From NCBI GenBank assembly GCA_036971615.1, contig JAYKKR010000033.1, positions 1 through 64,000 on the forward strand: a stretch of DNA of 64,000 bases. The letters run 5' to 3'. Shown piece by piece: positions 1 to 14,764 of this stretch; position 1 is the stretch's first letter; each line of letters starts with the position of its first letter. Made by a program: the position numbers and the translations under genes. The stretch comes from Amyloporia xantha (taxonomy: Eukaryota; Basidiomycota; Agaricomycetes; Polyporales; Adustoporiaceae). Below the pieces are notes generated by a model that saw nothing but the letters and a program-made list of their open reading frames with translations, was not told where the DNA came from and made no database searches.

Positions 1-122
1 ACCTAACCTAACCTAACCTAACCTAACCTAACCTAACCTAACCTAACCTAACCTAACCTAACCTAACCTAACCTAACCTAACCTAACCTAACCTAACCTA
101 ACCTAACCTAACCTAACCCTAA
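1..122. repeat. Terminal telomeric repeat array (CCTAA)n
   Basis: About 23 uninterrupted copies of the 5-mer CCTAA start at base 1, with a single 6-mer CCCTAA at the inner end. The C-rich strand reads 5' to 3' from the left end, which is the polarity of a left chromosome end. The G-strand unit is therefore TTAGG, rather than the TTAGGG most often reported from fungi. Confidence 0.93.
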
Positions 123-7215: not shown

Positions 7216-7567
7216 CGTGTAATACACGGATCGCATGAGGCGCAGGGAAGGAGCAACGCAGCGAGACGGACCAAGGCTAACCTGGCTCTAGACACCAGGA
7301 CTGCGGAGAGAGGCGGCGTCAGGTGTATATCGTCGACAGACTGCAGGGGGATCGTCGAATGCAGAGCGTGTAGGTACACGGCTCGCATGGTCGCCTGAGA
7401 GATGGTGTGTGCAAGAGGGTAGGGACGCCGAGTGCACCAGAGCTACAGGCGCGCCCGGCGCGTGAGGTAGAAGGGCGGGCGCATGCAGTCGACGGTGGTA
7501 TGGCGCGCCGTAGGAGCCCTGTTCAAAAAGAAATACGTCCCACCGATGCTGAGCGTGTAGGTACACG
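7216..7567. repeat. Three dispersed copies of a GAGCGTGTA palindrome
   Basis: The motif GAGCGTGTA-GG-TACACGGCTCGCA occurs at 7364-7385 and 7551-7573, with a variant at 7213-7233. The inverted halves CGTGTA and TACACG are exact in all three. The copies are 151 and 187 bases apart in otherwise unlike sequence, so the motif itself is what is repeated. Confidence 0.7.
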
Positions 7568-7864
7568 GCTCGCAAGGGTGGTTGGACGAGTGAGATGGGC
7601 AGGAGAGCTTGAGTACCCACCTGAAGGCCCAGCACGGCTGCCACCCTGCACGCTGTCCCTCGTCTGCCTGCCGTTCTGCGCAACATCCTCCCTCCAAAAC
7701 ACCTTTGGGCGAGGCCGACGGGCCATACGCGCGAGTCGCAAACGCTCCGGCGCGTGCTGGAGGTGGTGGTGAACGAGCCAGTTCCGAGTTGTCGGGCGGG
7801 TGTGGCACGGGCGCTTGGCGGCTCGACTTGTCCCGAGCATATCTCGACAACGCCGCTTGCGACT

Positions 7865-7904
7865 GCTACGGGGTAACTTGCGAAAGCAAGCTACGACCCG
7901 TAGC
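7865..7904. other. Two-part hairpin with GAAA loop
   Basis: GCTACGGG (7865-7872) pairs with CCCGTAGC (7897-7904). Inside, CTTGC (7877-7881) pairs with GCAAG (7886-7890) around a GAAA tetraloop. The two helices are separated by short internal loops. It is a good RNA hairpin, of unknown role. Confidence 0.6.
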
Positions 7905-8181
7905 TACGAGTCGCAAGCGAGTCGGTGGCGAAACGGGACGGGATGAGGGAGTCGCAAGAGGGACTTTGCGGGTGGCGCCGACCCGTGAGACACCTCTGAT
8001 CGCCGTTGCCGCCGGCGACGAACGGCTGATCCGCGCACCGTCGCCCCTTTTGCGAACGGTAGATAGGATGTAGGCCGTTAGATTGAGGGTGTTCCGAGGG
8101 CAAATGGCGCGGAATTGATGTACGGCAGGACGGGAGAGTGCGGGAAGTGCCGAATGGACCATTCGGCGGCTGGCATATGGG

Positions 8182-8626
8182 TAGGCCTGCCTAGGCCATG
8201 ACGTCAAGGGTGGCACATGTGATTGCATGAATCACATGCACCGGCTCGGGTACTTCGGTGACTTCTCGGAACGGCGGAACGCCGACGGAATGACGTCACT
8301 CCTATTTATAGGAGACAGGTCTAGACAATGACATCATAGTCCGAGTCCACCCGATGGCGGGATAATGCCATTGGCTCGGTCTCGTCGGCAACTATTAATA
8401 AGATATTATGCCGTCGTACGATTCTCAAAGTCGTACGATGCGAGGTATTTCTCGCTTACCAAGATAGAGGGCCTGATGAGTCTATAAAAGACGAAATGGG
8501 TCGGTGTTGGATCCCCAGCACCTCATTGCCTTGCTCTGTCTCCTGCTCCTCAGCAACTTCCTCCGCTAAGGTCGCCTTCGGCTCCCATAGCTCCGTCGTC
8601 GCTTCGTCGCTCCACCACCTAACCTA
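8182..8626 (+). repeat. Left terminal repeat of the Penelope-like element
   Basis: It matches 13949-14393 at a constant offset of 5767 with no difference noticed. It contains several dyads: TGTGATT-GCATG-AATCACA, CGGCG-GAA-CGCCG and CTCCTAT-TT-ATAGGAG. A direct repeat GTCGTACGAT and the hammerhead ribozyme are at its 3' end. It ends at the CACCTAACCTA junction. Confidence 0.92.
8468..8594 (+). ncRNA. Hammerhead ribozyme motif, copy 2
   Basis: The core is exact: CTGATGA (8473-8479), stem II GTC/GAC with a 7-nt loop, then GAAA (8493-8496). Stem III is closed by TGGG (8497-8500) and CCCA (8584-8587), followed by UA (8588-8589), a legal NUH cleavage site. Stem I is formed by GGGC (8469-8472) and GCTC (8590-8593). 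Stem III encloses about 80 nt, including hairpin GGTGTTGG/CCAGCACC. Hammerheads in the terminal repeats of Penelope-like elements are established. The large stem III is unusual, and the exact fold is inferred. Confidence 0.78.
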
Positions 8627-9028
8627 GCGGGGTGAATCGGCGGTTAAAGCGCGCACTTTGATGGCACCGGTGTGAGCCGGGTACGGTAATAATCCAAAGT
8701 ATGAGCGATGGCGCGCCTTCTGGGTGTATACCCTGGGACGTTCGAAGCGAAATGGGTAATCAGCAGCCAACCAGCTTGGAGCGTTTATTCGCTTCGAGGT
8801 GAGGGGTTCAACGACTAGATGGTTGTGGGCGGAGCTCTGTTTCTCGCCTCTGTGACGGAGATGGTATTCTCGGGATGGCTGGGGATCACGCCACCTGGGC
8901 CGTTGGCCTTAGTTCCCGCAAGGGGGCGAGGGTTCGACGCGAACTCCTCTCTTGAACATGTGAGCATCTCCGCTTAAGATATAGTCTATATAGTGGCGAA
9001 AGTCACGGTGATACGCTAAACGTGTAAA
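8616..9028 (+). ncRNA. Group I intron-like ribozyme in the element's 5' leader
   Basis: The conserved R and S blocks are plain: GGTTCAACGACTAGATGG (8805-8822) and TTAAGATATAGTC (8974-8986). A full topology can be drawn: P1 CACCU (8616-8620) with GGGUG (8630-8634), ending in the U.G pair that marks the cleavage site; P2 GCGCGCACTTTG (8649-8660) with CAAAGT and GCGCGC (8695-8716); P3 CCUUCU/AGAUGG (8716-8721/8817-8822, one mismatch); P4 GGGUGU/GCAGCC (8722-8727/8763-8768, one mismatch); P5 TACCC/GGGTA (8729-8733/8754-8758); P6 CTTGGAGCG/CGCTTCGAG (8775-8783/8790-8798); P7 GACTA/TAGTC (8813-8817/8982-8986); P8 GCGGAG/CTCCGC (8829-8834/8968-8973); P9 GTGGC-GAAA-GTCAC (8993-9006). No homing endonuclease is present. 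The 3' splice site was not found, so splicing or plain self-cleavage are both possible. Confidence 0.82.
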
Positions 9029-9234
9029 AATAAGGCGGTTGGAGGACCGTCCTTATGGTGGCTGTCTGCTTTCGGGGTTTCCTGCCCTGACCACCCGCGC
9101 CTGAACGATCACGCCATATAAAGCCGCGCGGAGGTTCACTGTTTTGGGTAAACCGAAACATATCTTCGTGCGCCGCTAGTAGCTTGTGGTGTAACAGCCC
9201 TTTGTGAACGCGTGTACACGTGACGAAAAACGGT

Positions 9235-9372
9235 GTCCCTTAGTAAAGGACCTAACTGGACAATAGTTCAGCCGTGAAGTAGGCTCGTCAGTCTCTTATT
9301 GGTCCGCCCTTAGTAAAGGCGGTTCGCAGTGGCACTAGCCGCGCCAGTAGTCGTGGCCCCTTAGTAAAGGGC
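9235..9372 (+). ncRNA. Three tandem covarying hairpins with a shared CTTAGTAAA loop
   Basis: The 9-nt loop CTTAGTAAA is invariant, while its stem changes on both sides together: GTCC/GGAC (9235-9251), CCGCC/GGCGG (9304-9322) and GCCC/GGGC (9356-9372). Each is followed by a related block (CTGGACAATAG, GTGGCACTAG, CTGGCAATAG). Spacings are 70 and 51. Compensatory changes point to a conserved RNA structure in the leader, perhaps a protein-binding or translation element; the role is unknown. Confidence 0.75.
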
Positions 9373-9563
9373 ATTAAACTGGCAATAGCTGGGCGATCTT
9401 GTGAGCTGAGTTTCTTGCGGTCTGCACACCCGAAAGGGATCTGTTCACGCGCAAAATACACGGAGATTACTTGTATGGTAACCGCGGTATGCCTAGCTTC
9501 TCAACGATGATCTGCCAGTTTGCACAAGAAGCTGGTGGTAGGATGGAGCAAAGCCGTATCCTT

Positions 9564-9638
9564 GCAGCAACTTCCTCCGCTAAGGTCGCCTTCGGCTCCC
9601 ATAGCTCCGTCGTCGCTTCGTCGCTCCACCACCTAACC
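9564..9638 (+). repeat. Partial copy of the element end before the coding region
   Basis: This copy matches 8552-8626 from AGCAACTTCCTCCGC to CCACCACCTAACC and so lacks the hammerhead core. The 930-bp structured leader is thus flanked by direct repeats of about 75 bp. The sequence after the junction leads directly into the RT start codon 46 bases later. Confidence 0.88.
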
Positions 9639-9684
9639 TTTACCACCAACGACGCACCCCCATTGAGTGTTTCATTTCTTTACA

Positions 9685-10879
9685 ATGTCTTCATTCAACT
9701 TCTCTGTTGGCACCCCAAGCTTCCTTCGCGCCGTCTCCCCGCTGGTTGACTCAGTTCGCATCAGCAATGTTTCGGCCCAGTCTGGCGACGAGTCTAACAC
9801 CTCGTTGCTGTACGGTCGTCACACAGCGATTCTCGCGGCCAACACGGTCGACGAAGTCGTTTCCATGGTGTCTCCGGACTACCGTGACGTTCTCCGCGGC
9901 CCGCTCTTAGAGCTCGCCAAAACCGTCAGCAAATGCTGTTCGGCGCGGTCCACTCTCGCAAAGTGGGAGCACCACAAGAGTGCCGGAACGTACCCTCAGC
10001 ACCTCCGCGTCGCAAAACCCGACCTTCAGCTCACGAAGGAATACTCGGATTCGACGAGTGCCGCCGAGCACAAAAAGAAAATCTCAGATGATTGGGATAA
10101 GTATTTGAGCGGTACCTTGGAGGAGTCGATCCGAGCGAAGAAGGACGACGTAGCTCATTTAGAGGGACTTCTTGGTCGAGATGTGTTGTTCCAGCAGCTC
10201 GACAATATCGTTAAGCATCGGTGGCAAGTGGTAAAGACACAAGCCATGGTACCGAAGCTCGTTGCCTCGCCCAACGACCCGAACGAAGCAGTCGTCGACG
10301 GCTGGGAAGTGTCGCCTGTAGCGGTGGCAGCCTACCACGCCTGTCGAGAAGATCTGTCGGTCTACGTCTTGCGCATTCAGCGGCTCGTCGAGAGTCGTGA
10401 TGCTGCGTCTCGCCTCAAGCAGGACGCCAAGAAGGAGATCGCCGCCGCCGCCGACGTCGAAATGGTCGATGTCTCTGACAACGCCGTCGCTGGTCCCGGG
10501 CCCTCTACTATGGCCCTGATCAACAAAGCAGTCGATGCGCGGTATCATAAGCTCGCGGACAAACTCAGCAAGGAGTATGCGCAGAAGTCGAAGGTAAGTC
10601 CAGGTCCCTCACTTGGCACTAAGGCTTACACGCTAATGTCGTACCTAGAAGAATGGCGGGTCGACTCAGTCCAAGGGCAAAGGGAAGGAACTCCCTCGTC
10701 CCCCGGAGGTAAAAAGGTACATCCCTCCTCCGACTCGTTCGCGCCAAAGAAGCGCAACTCAGTCATCCCTAAGCAGAAAGGCCAAGGCAATTCGCGCGGC
10801 GGGAGGGGTAAAGGCTCATCAAAAGAAGGAGCAGGCGAAGGAAAAGAAGGGGAAGGGAGGAAAGAAGGGTGGCAAGTAA
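9685..10879 (+). CDS. Element ORF1 (spliced form), Lys-rich C-terminus
   Basis: From the ATG at 9685, a 55-nt intron (10594-10648) with GTAAGT donor, CTAAT branch-like site and TAG acceptor can be removed. The reading frame then shifts and stops at TAA 10877-10879, giving 379 residues (exons 9685-10593 and 10649-10879). The first 300 residues contain charged, probably helical segments. The alternative tail is Lys-rich (KEKKGKKGGKKGGK near the end), as in nucleic-acid-binding Gag/ORF1 proteins. Without splicing the frame stays open into the RT. The donor is close to consensus, which makes this more than chance, but transcripts are needed. Confidence 0.55.
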
Positions 10880-13242
10880 GCGCGTACTATAGTGAGAAAT
10901 CACTTACGCCGTTGTCAGAGCATGAGGCTTTGTCTCGGACTTTTGTTTATCATTACGGACGTCCCTCTTCTCTCCCAGATTGGTTGCTTTCAATCCCGCA
11001 TCCGTTAGCTGTGCGTTGTGTACTTTTAAATACTCCAGTAGATGTTCTGCGAGCAGCCCAATTTAAAAGTTATGTCCACCTGTCTACCGGTGTCTCTGTC
11101 CCCCGTGAGATACAATATCAGTTGAGTATAGGCATGAAATTCATGTTCTATTCGCCTTACAATCGAGAACTCATACGCGATGCCTGGCGAGAATTTAATC
11201 GTCGTATTCATTGGCGATTATTTTTTCACTTGACCGATCAAAATCAGTGGTTTGATCCTGAGTATGAAGTGAAATCTGAGCATCGTGCAAAGAGAGTACC
11301 TCAGCTACCGCACTATATCGAACAAGGACTTCTCAAAGGCAGGCTGTTCGTTAACAAAACGCTAGCCAATATGCCAGAGTCGCTAGAGTCGGAAGACCAC
11401 CTTAAGCCGCTCGGTCCGAATCTCCGCCAAGTTCGAGATTTCTTGAAGGCTCACGACTATATTGTGACGCCTACAGACAAGAATCTGGGCATTGCGGTGT
11501 CAGAGCGCACCTGGATCATCTCCCAAACCTTGGAGGTACTGTCAAACGTTAAGGATTATCGACGCCTTAACCGATTAACAGCCAACGAAATCCTCCGAGT
11601 AAAATGTGCAGAAATGAATGAGATAGCAGACTTAACTGAGGTCTACTTAACTCTTGAGGAGCCGTTTAACCTGTCAGACTTTTTGCGGTCTAAGATAACA
11701 CCGGCAGGTTCGAGTAACCATCATATACCAATATTTTATGGTATACCTAAGATTCACAAATACCCTGTGAAATTTAGGCCGATAATTCCATGTCACTCGG
11801 CCATTCAAAATCCTGCGGCTAAATTCGTTTCTAAAAAACTCAAACCGATTGTCGAATCGGCGCCAACCATTTTACATGGTACCAAACACTTGGCGATAAA
11901 ATTGAGTCAACTGAAGTTGCGTCGAGATCGTCGCTGGTACATTGTTACTGGTGATGTCGTCGCGTTCTACCCAAACATTCCTTTAGACAAATGTCTTAAT
12001 ATTGTCAACGAGCTTTATCTCGAACACTATTGGAGTGCGGATCCGGAACGCGGCGGAGCAAATCATGCTAAGAAGGTCCAAGAAATCTTCAAACGCTGTC
12101 TCGAAGTTGGCAACACTCGGTTGCTTACACAGTTTCAAGGTGTTTTATATGAGCAATTGCGCGGCCTAGCAATGGGCGTAGCGGACTCGCCGGATCTAGC
12201 TAACTTGTATGGTTGGTGGTTCGAGCGCAAATGCGATATAATGAATAACGACTTAGTTCCTTTCTATGGTCGTTACATCGATGATTGTTTAGCGATTGTC
12301 TACGCTTCTAGTGAACAAGAGGCGTTAGATATTATCTCTTACAATATACACTTCGATGGCTGTGTTATTGAGTGGAACGTTTCGCATCGGTCTCAGGTGT
12401 TCCTGGACATGACGCTCTACAAAGACGAATTTGATAGGTTGCAGCACATGCCATACCGCAAAGCAGCGTCCCACCAAGAAAGGATTCCATGGATATCTCA
12501 TCACCCTCTCGACGTAAAGAGAGGTACCTTTATAGGGGAGATGTCGCGGCTTGCCACCCTGAGTAGTACTAAGCATACTTACTTACAGGCCATGCAAGGC
12601 TTGGTCGCCTTGTACATGTGCAGGGGGTATCCCGAACAACTCGTAACTCATTGGCTGAAGAATAACATCTCAGAACGATGGGAAAAACGGCTCAGTGTAC
12701 CGCGTGACGGCGGTGAGCCTAAGGCGTCGCAAGGCGTTCTTGTACTGAAGTCTGAGTTTAACGAGGCATGGAACTACTTTCAAGCGAAAGAGCTTGGAGA
12801 CGTCATCACAGGATATTGGCGTGAGTGGTGCACACGCGCCGCCACAGGGGACTGGTCACCAGAATACCCGTACGAAGATCTGCAATCTGGCAGAGCCTCA
12901 TTCGACGCCGCGGCGAAATTCGGCAGTTGGCATGTGGGCGAGGAAACCAGATTTGTGGATATTCGTAAGACTGATATCCTAGACCGTCGCTGGTTAGTGT
13001 CTCGTAAAAGAACACGAAACCTAGCCGACATCGCAAGTGTCTGGAAAAAGATGATTCTCGAAAAGCTGGACGAGCGTGTCGTCAACGAACAATCTGCGGA
13101 AAGTTCGTCAATGGCGGCACAAGATGTTCAAGGCGGTTCGCAGTTACCGTTTAGTCAGCCGGGGGAAGTCCCTGGGGTTTCTGACGATGATACGATTTAT
13201 CTGCACCGCCACTCGCCGGACCCATTTGGGTGGGCGCATTAG
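9685..13242 (+). CDS. Penelope-like reverse transcriptase (ORF1-RT read-through form)
   Basis: One unbroken frame of 1185 residues runs from the ATG at 9685. An in-frame GTG lies 18 bases earlier and was not used. The RT part starts near residue 580 (DYIVTPTDKNLGIAV). It has the Penelope signature GIPKIHKYPVKFRPIIP near 685, motif A GDVVAFYPNIP with Asp 757, motif B GLAMGVADSPDLANLY near 830, motif C YIDD (864-867) and a downstream FLDMTLYKD block near 905. The C-terminal stretch keeps the family's SHHPLDVKRG and RGYPEQL connector motifs. No GIY-YIG endonuclease is visible, which places it with the EN-minus telomeric Penelope elements (Athena/Coprina). All catalytic aspartates are present and there is no internal stop. 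The RT may also be expressed from an internal start or by intron retention. Confidence 0.92.
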   Translation: MSSFNFSVGTPSFLRAVSPLVDSVRISNVSAQSGDESNTSLLYGRHTAILAANTVDEVVSMVSPDYRDVLRGPLLELAKTVSKCCSARSTLAKWEHHKSAGTYPQHLRVAKPDLQLTKEYSDSTSAAEHKKKISDDWDKYLSGTLEESIRAKKDDVAHLEGLLGRDVLFQQLDNIVKHRWQVVKTQAMVPKLVASPNDPNEAVVDGWEVSPVAVAAYHACREDLSVYVLRIQRLVESRDAASRLKQDAKKEIAAAADVEMVDVSDNAVAGPGPSTMALINKAVDARYHKLADKLSKEYAQKSKVSPGPSLGTKAYTLMSYLEEWRVDSVQGQREGTPSSPGGKKVHPSSDSFAPKKRNSVIPKQKGQGNSRGGRGKGSSKEGAGEGKEGEGRKEGWQVSAYYSEKSLTPLSEHEALSRTFVYHYGRPSSLPDWLLSIPHPLAVRCVLLNTPVDVLRAAQFKSYVHLSTGVSVPREIQYQLSIGMKFMFYSPYNRELIRDAWREFNRRIHWRLFFHLTDQNQWFDPEYEVKSEHRAKRVPQLPHYIEQGLLKGRLFVNKTLANMPESLESEDHLKPLGPNLRQVRDFLKAHDYIVTPTDKNLGIAVSERTWIISQTLEVLSNVKDYRRLNRLTANEILRVKCAEMNEIADLTEVYLTLEEPFNLSDFLRSKITPAGSSNHHIPIFYGIPKIHKYPVKFRPIIPCHSAIQNPAAKFVSKKLKPIVESAPTILHGTKHLAIKLSQLKLRRDRRWYIVTGDVVAFYPNIPLDKCLNIVNELYLEHYWSADPERGGANHAKKVQEIFKRCLEVGNTRLLTQFQGVLYEQLRGLAMGVADSPDLANLYGWWFERKCDIMNNDLVPFYGRYIDDCLAIVYASSEQEALDIISYNIHFDGCVIEWNVSHRSQVFLDMTLYKDEFDRLQHMPYRKAASHQERIPWISHHPLDVKRGTFIGEMSRLATLSSTKHTYLQAMQGLVALYMCRGYPEQLVTHWLKNNISERWEKRLSVPRDGGEPKASQGVLVLKSEFNEAWNYFQAKELGDVITGYWREWCTRAATGDWSPEYPYEDLQSGRASFDAAAKFGSWHVGEETRFVDIRKTDILDRRWLVSRKRTRNLADIASVWKKMILEKLDERVVNEQSAESSSMAAQDVQGGSQLPFSQPGEVPGVSDDDTIYLHRHSPDPFGWAH

Positions 13243-13948: not shown

Positions 13949-14393
13949 TAGGCCTGCCTAGGCCATGACGTCAAGGGTGGCACATGTGATTGCATGAATC
14001 ACATGCACCGGCTCGGGTACTTCGGTGACTTCTCGGAACGGCGGAACGCCGACGGAATGACGTCACTCCTATTTATAGGAGACAGGTCTAGACAATGACA
14101 TCATAGTCCGAGTCCACCCGATGGCGGGATAATGCCATTGGCTCGGTCTCGTCGGCAACTATTAATAAGATATTATGCCGTCGTACGATTCTCAAAGTCG
14201 TACGATGCGAGGTATTTCTCGCTTACCAAGATAGAGGGCCTGATGAGTCTATAAAAGACGAAATGGGTCGGTGTTGGATCCCCAGCACCTCATTGCCTTG
14301 CTCTGTCTCCTGCTCCTCAGCAACTTCCTCCGCTAAGGTCGCCTTCGGCTCCCATAGCTCCGTCGTCGCTTCGTCGCTCCACCACCTAACCTA
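13949..14393 (+). repeat. Right terminal repeat with hammerhead copy 3
   Basis: This is the partner of 8182-8626, base for base as far as compared. The hammerhead core lies at 14240-14263 and its predicted cleavage is after 14356. It ends at the CACCTAACCTA junction, after which a diverged copy continues. Confidence 0.92.
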
Positions 14394-14764
14394 TTTCGGT
14401 GTTTTCTCGGACCGGCGGAATGCCGACGGAAGGAAGACTTGCCTAAACGGGCAACTGGTCTAGACAATGACATCATAGTCCGATGCCACCCGATAGCGGG
14501 ATTATGCTATTGGCTCGGACTCCTCGGCAACTATTAATAAGATATTAATGCCGTCGTACCACTTTTCAAAGTCGTACGATGCGAGGTAATTCTCGCTTGA
14601 CTAAGCAAGGGCCTGAAGAGTCTTAAAAGACGAAATGGGTCGGTGTTGGATCCCCAGCACCTCATTGTCCAGCTCAGTCTCCCGCTCCTCAGCAACTTCC
14701 TTCGCAAAGTTCGGCTTTCGCCTCACATTGCTCAGTCGTCGCTTCGTCGCTCCACCACCTAACG
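14394..14764 (+). mobile_element. Degenerate third copy of the element end
   Basis: The sequence is recognisably the terminal repeat from the TTCGGTG...CTCGG block to CCACCACCTAAC, but with many substitutions and a deletion. It contains hammerhead copy 4 (CTGAAGA 14613-14619, GAAA 14632-14635). Position 7 of the core and the stem II loop have changed, while every invariant base is kept. It abuts a broken gene at 14765, so it was probably the first element added to this chromosome end. Confidence 0.85.
14609..14733 (+). ncRNA. Hammerhead ribozyme motif, copy 4 (diverged)
   Basis: The core CTGAAGA-GTC...GAC-GAAA is intact. Stem I GGGC (14609-14612) pairs with GCTC (14730-14733). Stem III is weaker than in copies 2 and 3 because CCCA has become CACA. 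It may be inactive. Confidence 0.6.

Follow-up and report, generated by a model that had tools for sequence, protein, structure and literature searches.

We describe related group I introns that reside in leaders of a telomeric retroelement; one truncated member of this family lies in the 64,000-nucleotide stretch of DNA analysed here (the window). We consider it likely that these are endonuclease-free, self-splicing introns housed in the leader of a telomeric Penelope-like element of a fungal-type nuclear genome, and that they parasitise this element and spread, most probably, by reverse splicing together with its reverse transcriptase. Their structure, the presence of empty and filled leaders, the use of several sites, the match between guide and site in two introns and a recent transfer were established directly.

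All intron copies compared come from one genome (46.8 Mb, 60 contigs). The element and its surroundings in the window comprise the following features:

2–116, forward strand: telomere repeat (CCTAA)n, marking the start of the contig as a chromosome end
8182–8626, forward strand: pseudo-LTR of the telomeric element, ending in CCACCACCTAACCT plus A; 100% identical to 13949–14393
8473–8496, forward strand: hammerhead core CTGATGA-GTC..GAC-GAAA within the pseudo-LTR, found by core pattern match
9565–9639, forward strand: leader exon 3′ of the group I intron, identical to 8551–8625 of the adjoining pseudo-LTR
9685–13242, forward strand: single ORF of the element with the reverse transcriptase region, 1185 aa from ATG when unspliced
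10594–10648, forward strand: 55-nt spliceosomal-type intron, kept in all eight element copies checked
13949–14393, forward strand: 3′ pseudo-LTR without the group I intron, found by sequence comparison with 8182–8626

The pseudo-LTR at 8182–8626 has 45 matches genome-wide, partial ones counted, and the hammerhead core pattern was found at 19 distinct pseudo-LTR places in the element loci fetched. The pattern was unmatched in diverged pseudo-LTRs, namely at window 14392–14763 and in a 77% identical copy on contig C13, and the hammerhead model RF00008 gave 20.1 bits at 8452–8496, below its gathering score of 48.5. The same type of end as that of the window pseudo-LTR also adjoins a 5′-truncated intron piece and an ORF piece on contig C11, as well as a pseudo-LTR piece at window 14392. 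Published accounts of telomeric Penelope-like elements describe a hammerhead, a telomere-complementary 3′ end and 5′-truncated arrays, and the truncated-piece junctions and the pseudo-LTR end agree with the architecture set out in that part of the literature (PMC6431247). A further truncated pseudo-LTR with a hammerhead core lies at 126–284, about ten bases after the telomere repeat, and the sequence upstream of the first pseudo-LTR (7359–8186) is 82–89% identical to element loci on C23, C44 and C1. A target-site duplication was ruled out as the origin of the 75-bp repeat formed by 8551–8625 and 9565–9639, which consists of the terminal repeat and the leader exon of the element itself.

The class of the element was assessed from both its layout and its protein. 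Pseudo-LTRs with a hammerhead core (below the Rfam gathering score), a telomere repeat at the 3′ end and a location at the chromosome end are as expected for a telomeric Penelope-like element. For the window protein, searches of Pfam (E 0.1) and of PDB sequences (E 0.01) gave no match; a profile of its family had a single PDB match, the Drt3a reverse transcriptase (E 0.067), and one relative matched RVT_1 below the cut-off. With the predicted structure (mean pLDDT 65.5), telomerase reverse transcriptase accounted for nine of the best ten Foldseek matches, with a best E of 1.6e-7 and TM-scores of only 0.25–0.40. The motifs KIHK and YIDD, which we take to be reverse transcriptase motifs, are invariant in 17 sequences. 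The architecture, these motifs and the weak telomerase-type structural match point weakly to a Penelope-like element, the sequence profiles being uninformative; the name Coprina is carried over from the original prediction. A protein search retrieved 387 relatives, known as proteins only, and among the 120 of these that were listed is a Lentinula edodes protein 52% identical to that of the element.

The spliceosomal-type intron in the ORF has the form GTAAGT...GCTAATG...CTAG. Left unspliced, it allows seven of the eight copies to read through into the reverse transcriptase as a fusion of 1185–1186 aa (671 aa in C22); spliced, all eight read 379 aa with a lysine-rich tail. From this arrangement, its splicing may act as a switch between a Gag-like protein and a Gag-RT fusion. 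Since every copy checked has kept it, the element copies appear to have been made from intron-retaining templates, and intron retention is among the topics that PMC3846280 discusses for the Penelope-like class.

Four further stretches of the group I RNA were found in the genome: complete introns on C15 (1311 nt), C22 (1306 nt) and C11 (1192 nt), which all start with GAAGACCCACG and end with TATCCTTG, and a second truncated piece on C11. C15, C22 and C11 form lineage A, and the window copy (contig C27) and the truncated C11 piece form lineage B. Identity between the lineages is 78–83%; C15 is 91.6% identical to C11 and 99.9% to C22, and the two B copies are 96.6% identical. All five copies lie in sense orientation within element leaders, and DNA searches of the genome with three intron pieces found none outside them. 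No copy found is located in rDNA. In a genome-wide search with the group I model RF00028, 26 of 868 candidates were scored, and the ten matches listed comprised four in element leaders and six on C47. This 180.8-kb contig, on which four of the six matches score identically, was taken as mitochondrial because the three loci checked carry bacterial-type LSU rRNA and/or tRNA genes. When a core model was run on 19 sequence sources, it picked out the four core-bearing element introns together with two of the three C47 loci; five pattern matches in viral contigs yielded no confirmed relative.

The original prediction had placed a group I ribozyme with helices P1 to P9 at 8616–9028, inside the leader of a telomeric Penelope-like element, and proposed a covariance search. 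The location of a group I RNA in such a leader is supported, more strongly by the sister copies than by the window itself. All three complete introns exceed the RF00028 cut-off of 50 (63.2 bits for C11, 59.9 for C22 and 59.8 for C15; E 6.7e-14 to 6.6e-13), whereas the window copy remains below it, reaching 31.4 bits when 3.1 kb were scanned (E 1.8e-5) and 28.5 bits in the genome-wide search (E 4.8e-4); an Rfam scan of the whole window gave no family at gathering score. The RF00028 alignment of the window copy is excellent in the 3′ half (Q, R, S and P6–P9), and its 5′ half is filled by sequence from the hammerhead region. The folding energy of 8616–9028 was not informative, with z at −1.5 and 8 of 100 shuffled sequences reaching as low a value. 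The window copy consists of these parts:

8627–9564, forward strand: 5′-truncated group I intron of lineage B with the 3′ end ...ATCCTTG, delimited by alignment with complete copies and, at the 3′ boundary, by exon continuity
8754–8766, forward strand: 3′ strand of P5, J5/4 and 3′ strand of P4, the 5′ partners of which are missing in this copy
8813–8817, forward strand: 5′ strand of P7 (GACTA), pairing with TAGTC at 8982–8986
8820–8827, forward strand: 3′ strand of P3, its 5′ partner missing here; CAUGUCCA/UGGAUGUG in complete copies
8829–8973, forward strand: P8 (GCGGAG/CTCCGC), carrying a large extension not present in the complete C11 copy
8993–9006, forward strand: P9 (GTGGC-GAAA-GTCAC), two pairs of which are changed on both sides relative to other copies
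9007–9564, forward strand: 3′ domain of the intron, in which CCCTTAGTRAAGG hairpins recur

Alignments of this copy with the complete introns start at 8628, G8627 being read directly, and position 8627 (GCGGGG) corresponds to intron position 401–402. P1, P2 and the 5′ strands of P3, P4 and P5 are consequently missing from the window, so that P1 to P5 are not intact as had been proposed. The intron keeps P4′, P5′, P6, P7, P3′, P8 and P9, with the Q, R and S blocks and P6/P6a in place; P7, P8 and the GAAA-capped P9 lie where they had been predicted. Neither of the proposed ends survived the comparison, as bases 8616–8625 (CACCTAACCT) are the end of the separate terminal repeat at 8182–8626, and the intron runs beyond 9028 to 9564. 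A P1 formed by CACCTAACCT and GGGGTG, probably the one originally intended, was ruled out since about 400 nt of intron precede GCGGGG in the complete copies. The window would hold what remains of an element that lost its 5′ end within the intron, the telomere-type 3′ end of a different unit being joined there; this truncated copy is probably inactive. Two repeated arrangements were seen along the intron. In the 3′ domain, at window 9230–9400, a CCCTTAGTRAAGG hairpin followed by a second hairpin occurs three times, and the P8 extension and the 5′ domain of the intron (window 8829–8973 and positions 904–1100 of the C11 locus L040) have the blocks GCCTCTGTGACGG... and CTTGAACA...TCCGCTT in common, possibly reflecting a module duplicated within the intron.

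The conserved group I core, P3–P8 including P7 and the Q, R and S blocks, is present in the complete copies. Their P3 is CAUGUCCA/UGGAUGUG, P4 pairs CUGUU(CU)GG with UCAGCAG, P5 is GCCC/GGGU, and J4/5 is rich in A; in the C11 copy, the Rfam alignment places P3–P9 in the same way as our own model. An initial P4 of CTTCTGG with TCAGCAG was replaced by the present one after P3 had been found, and Rfam agrees on P3 and P4 in C11. Across the five copies, 97.9% of the cells of the 258 modelled pairs are paired, and 39 of the pairs are changed on both sides; shuffles gave 21.1, none of the 500 reaching 39, and slid controls gave 1–5. These statistics benefit from the fact that some of the modelled structure was derived from this alignment itself. 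Four of the five pairing measures exceed all 500 shuffles, and the occurrence of further pair types does not (69 versus 69.1). Helices P1 to P9 contain no unpaired cell and 14 changes on both sides; P1, P6a, P8 and P9, placed by the general group I plan, have eight on their own. P6a, P8 and P9 of the window copy covary with those of the other copies. All five copies end in ...CCTTG^, so that the last intron base is G. No P10 pairing was seen by eye.

Among 23 reverse transcriptase matches, we could read nine element copies in which the leader is joined to the start of the ORF. The intron is present in four of these leaders (C27, C15, C22 and C11) and absent from five (C10, two on C13, one of them the 77% relative, C6 and C12). 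Four of the intron-free elements (C10, C13a, C6 and C12) have open reading frames of 1186 aa. In C15 and C22 the site is CTTCGGCT^intron^CCCATAG or CCCATAT, and in C11 the complete intron lies at CACCTAACCT^intron^TCACCACC, such that introns with the same ends occupy different leader sites. The 3′ exon is CAGCAAC for the window intron and CCTCAGCAAC for the upstream C11 piece, the 5′ exons of both being absent; the upstream C11 piece thus lies at a third position, with a 3-nt shift. The C11 leader (L040 270–2095) holds two introns, a truncated one of lineage B and a complete one of lineage A, with a 78-nt exon between them. Because five of nine leaders lack the intron, at least three positions are used and its removal restores an uninterrupted leader as in the empty copies, a built-in ribozyme is not supported; the group I RNA is an optional intron of the element leader. 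That part of the leader could be excised was right in kind, although the part concerned would be the intron itself.

Guide and site were found to change together. The guide lies at intron position 195 in C15 and 194 in C11, just 3′ of the P1 extension GACCCACG/CGUGGGUC, and in C15, C22 and C11 it pairs with the 5′ exon, with a U-G at the splice site. The C15 guide GGCCG forms 5 bp with its own exon CGGCU, as does that of C22, and the C11 guide GGGUUAG forms 7 bp with CUAACCU, a motif resembling the telomere repeat; when the guides of C15 and C11 are swapped between their exons, each forms 2 bp. Three of the five P1 pairs common to C15 and C11 differ on both sides. With the guide taken at this position and compared with the 51 positions ending in U in the joined leader of the window, both introns pair best at their real site (5 versus next 3, and 7 versus next 5). 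Under the rule that cross-pairing be below 4 bp, 30 of 20,000 random exon pairs and one of 2550 ordered leader site pairs, which is the real one, do as well. Once this rule is dropped, the support becomes weak, since the observed value is then reached by 425 of the 20,000 random exon pairs and by 91 of the 2550 pairs of leader sites. Support is likewise weak if the matching segment may lie anywhere in the intron (110 of 2000 and 288 of 2450); the guide position had been found by the same search and not set in advance. As both lineage B copies lack the 5′ part, only two guides can be read, and for these two the support for a guide-site match is good.

One transfer of the intron is recent. Of 1305 intron positions aligned between C15 and C22 one differs, as against 420 of 5190 elsewhere in the element, meaning that the elements otherwise differ by 8% and that the island of identity is bounded by the intron ends. 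Exon identity stops 17 nt 5′ and 6 nt 3′ of the intron, the flanking 150-nt exons being 92.0% and 88.6% identical. In its N-terminal ORF, C22 is closest to the intron-free C10 (98.2%, versus 88.0% to C15). Short indels also separate the two introns, and they may be sequencing errors near a contig end. We found no homing endonuclease in the intron ORFs examined, a search that a gene split by an intron would escape. In C15 the longest ORF with a start codon has 109 aa and three of the four longest ORFs had no Pfam match; nor did the stop-to-stop frames of 219 and 121 aa in C22. The longest stop-to-stop frame in C11 has 102 aa, and that of the window remnant has 92 aa and extends beyond the remnant.

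From these comparisons we infer that the introns are transcribed, spliced and able to reverse-splice, and that the element's reverse transcriptase takes part. The complete introns would fold into a normal group I core, with the guide pairing with the last 5–7 nt of the 5′ exon, a U-G at the splice site and a large P1 extension, and a two-step GTP reaction would excise them and leave the leader intact. The freed intron would then reverse-splice into leader RNA where sites match its guide, and the element's own reverse transcriptase would copy the intron-bearing RNA onto a chromosome end. Mobility by reverse splicing into leader RNA followed by such copying seems to us somewhat more probable than not; that the intron hitchhikes in the full sense, with a guide retargeted to new sites in element RNA and the copies carried to chromosome ends, we regard as evenly balanced. 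Reverse splicing combined with the element's reverse transcriptase would account for the sense orientation, the several sites per leader, the guide-site match and the confinement to the element. It is opposed by the consideration that an intron that splices efficiently should often be lost before reverse transcription, and homing or gene conversion could explain the common site of C15 and C22.

The latter point leads to an alternative that we judge unlikely but worth weighing, in which a true group I intron is mobilised as DNA, either through a homing endonuclease supplied in trans or by ectopic gene conversion among subtelomeric copies. Subtelomeres recombine often, and the same site and an identity island restricted to the intron in C15 and C22 are what such movement would produce. 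However, the tested ORFs of the complete C15 and C22 introns contain no endonuclease domain, homing to one site leaves the different position in C11 and the two-intron leader unexplained, the guide differs with the site, and it would take a coincidence for a conversion tract to stop within 17 nt of one intron end and 6 nt of the other. It is rather improbable that a single arrival gave rise to every copy and that these are now fossils, unable to splice and moved later by recombination only. Truncation of two of the five copies and the indels between C22 and C15 would fit such decay, yet changes on both sides maintain pairs in P1, P2, P6a, P8 and P9, and the C15/C22 transfer is recent.

The original prediction had proposed an integral second ribozyme that could process the RNA ends of the element together with the hammerhead. 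We now consider this very improbable: sense orientation, the leader position and a hammerhead core in the same pseudo-LTRs would suit it, but the RNA is absent from five of nine leaders, including the four elements with open 1186-aa frames, it occurs at three or more positions, and the window copy is truncated. An assembly artefact, with repeats misjoined at chromosome ends, is the least probable explanation. Near-identical repeat arrays do lie near contig ends and the C22 indels may mean lower sequence quality there, but the introns are found on four contigs, in different exon backgrounds and sites, and the three complete ones have the same ends.

The ribozyme is of a known kind, and its host and probable route of spread are new within the literature searched (mostly open-access journal papers), where we met no group I intron reported from a Penelope-like element. 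According to PMC3679873 and PMC8395846, group I introns of the nucleus are restricted to rDNA, an exception being those of cryptophyte polinton-like viruses (PMC12220804). Like the nuclear rDNA introns treated in PMC1299323 and PMC3679873, the introns described here combine a group I core with a short guide pairing (4–6 nt there) and lack an endonuclease, and related introns occur at several sites, which in rDNA share only short 5′ exon sequence. They differ in that the host is a telomeric retrotransposon encoding a reverse transcriptase and that the guide changes between sites along with the exon. The polinton-like virus introns resemble them as group I introns in mobile elements of protist genomes outside rDNA, but, in the portion of PMC12220804 concerned with them, their hosts are DNA virus-like, the introns are 309–376 bp long in a gene beside the capsid gene, and neither a retroelement nor an analysis of guides and sites appears.

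The host resembles the telomeric endonuclease-deficient Penelope-like elements and Terminons of PMC6431247 and PMC3846280, as far as these are described there, in its terminal-repeat hammerhead, reverse-complement telomere repeat at the 3′ end, 5′-truncated head-to-tail arrays at chromosome ends and intron retention; minimal hammerheads of such elements are a subject of PMC7761336. The group I intron sets it apart, since the words "group I" are absent from the main text of PMC6431247, and the corresponding parts of PMC3846280 and PMC7761336 mention none in such an element. One element here combines two ribozyme classes with a spliceosomal-type intron. Mobile group II introns likewise move by reverse splicing and reverse transcription, but the ribozyme here is group I and the reverse transcriptase would be that of the host element.

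For fungal rDNA introns, spread by reverse splicing has been proposed (PMC1299323), whereas evidence of the complete pathway is said, in the section of PMC3679873 dealing with it, to be lacking. A retrotransposon host brings together an RNA-inserting ribozyme and a reverse transcriptase that acts on the same RNA, which makes this long-proposed route directly testable. If true, hitchhiking on the element would supply the reverse-transcription step that is lacking in the rDNA reverse-splicing model.
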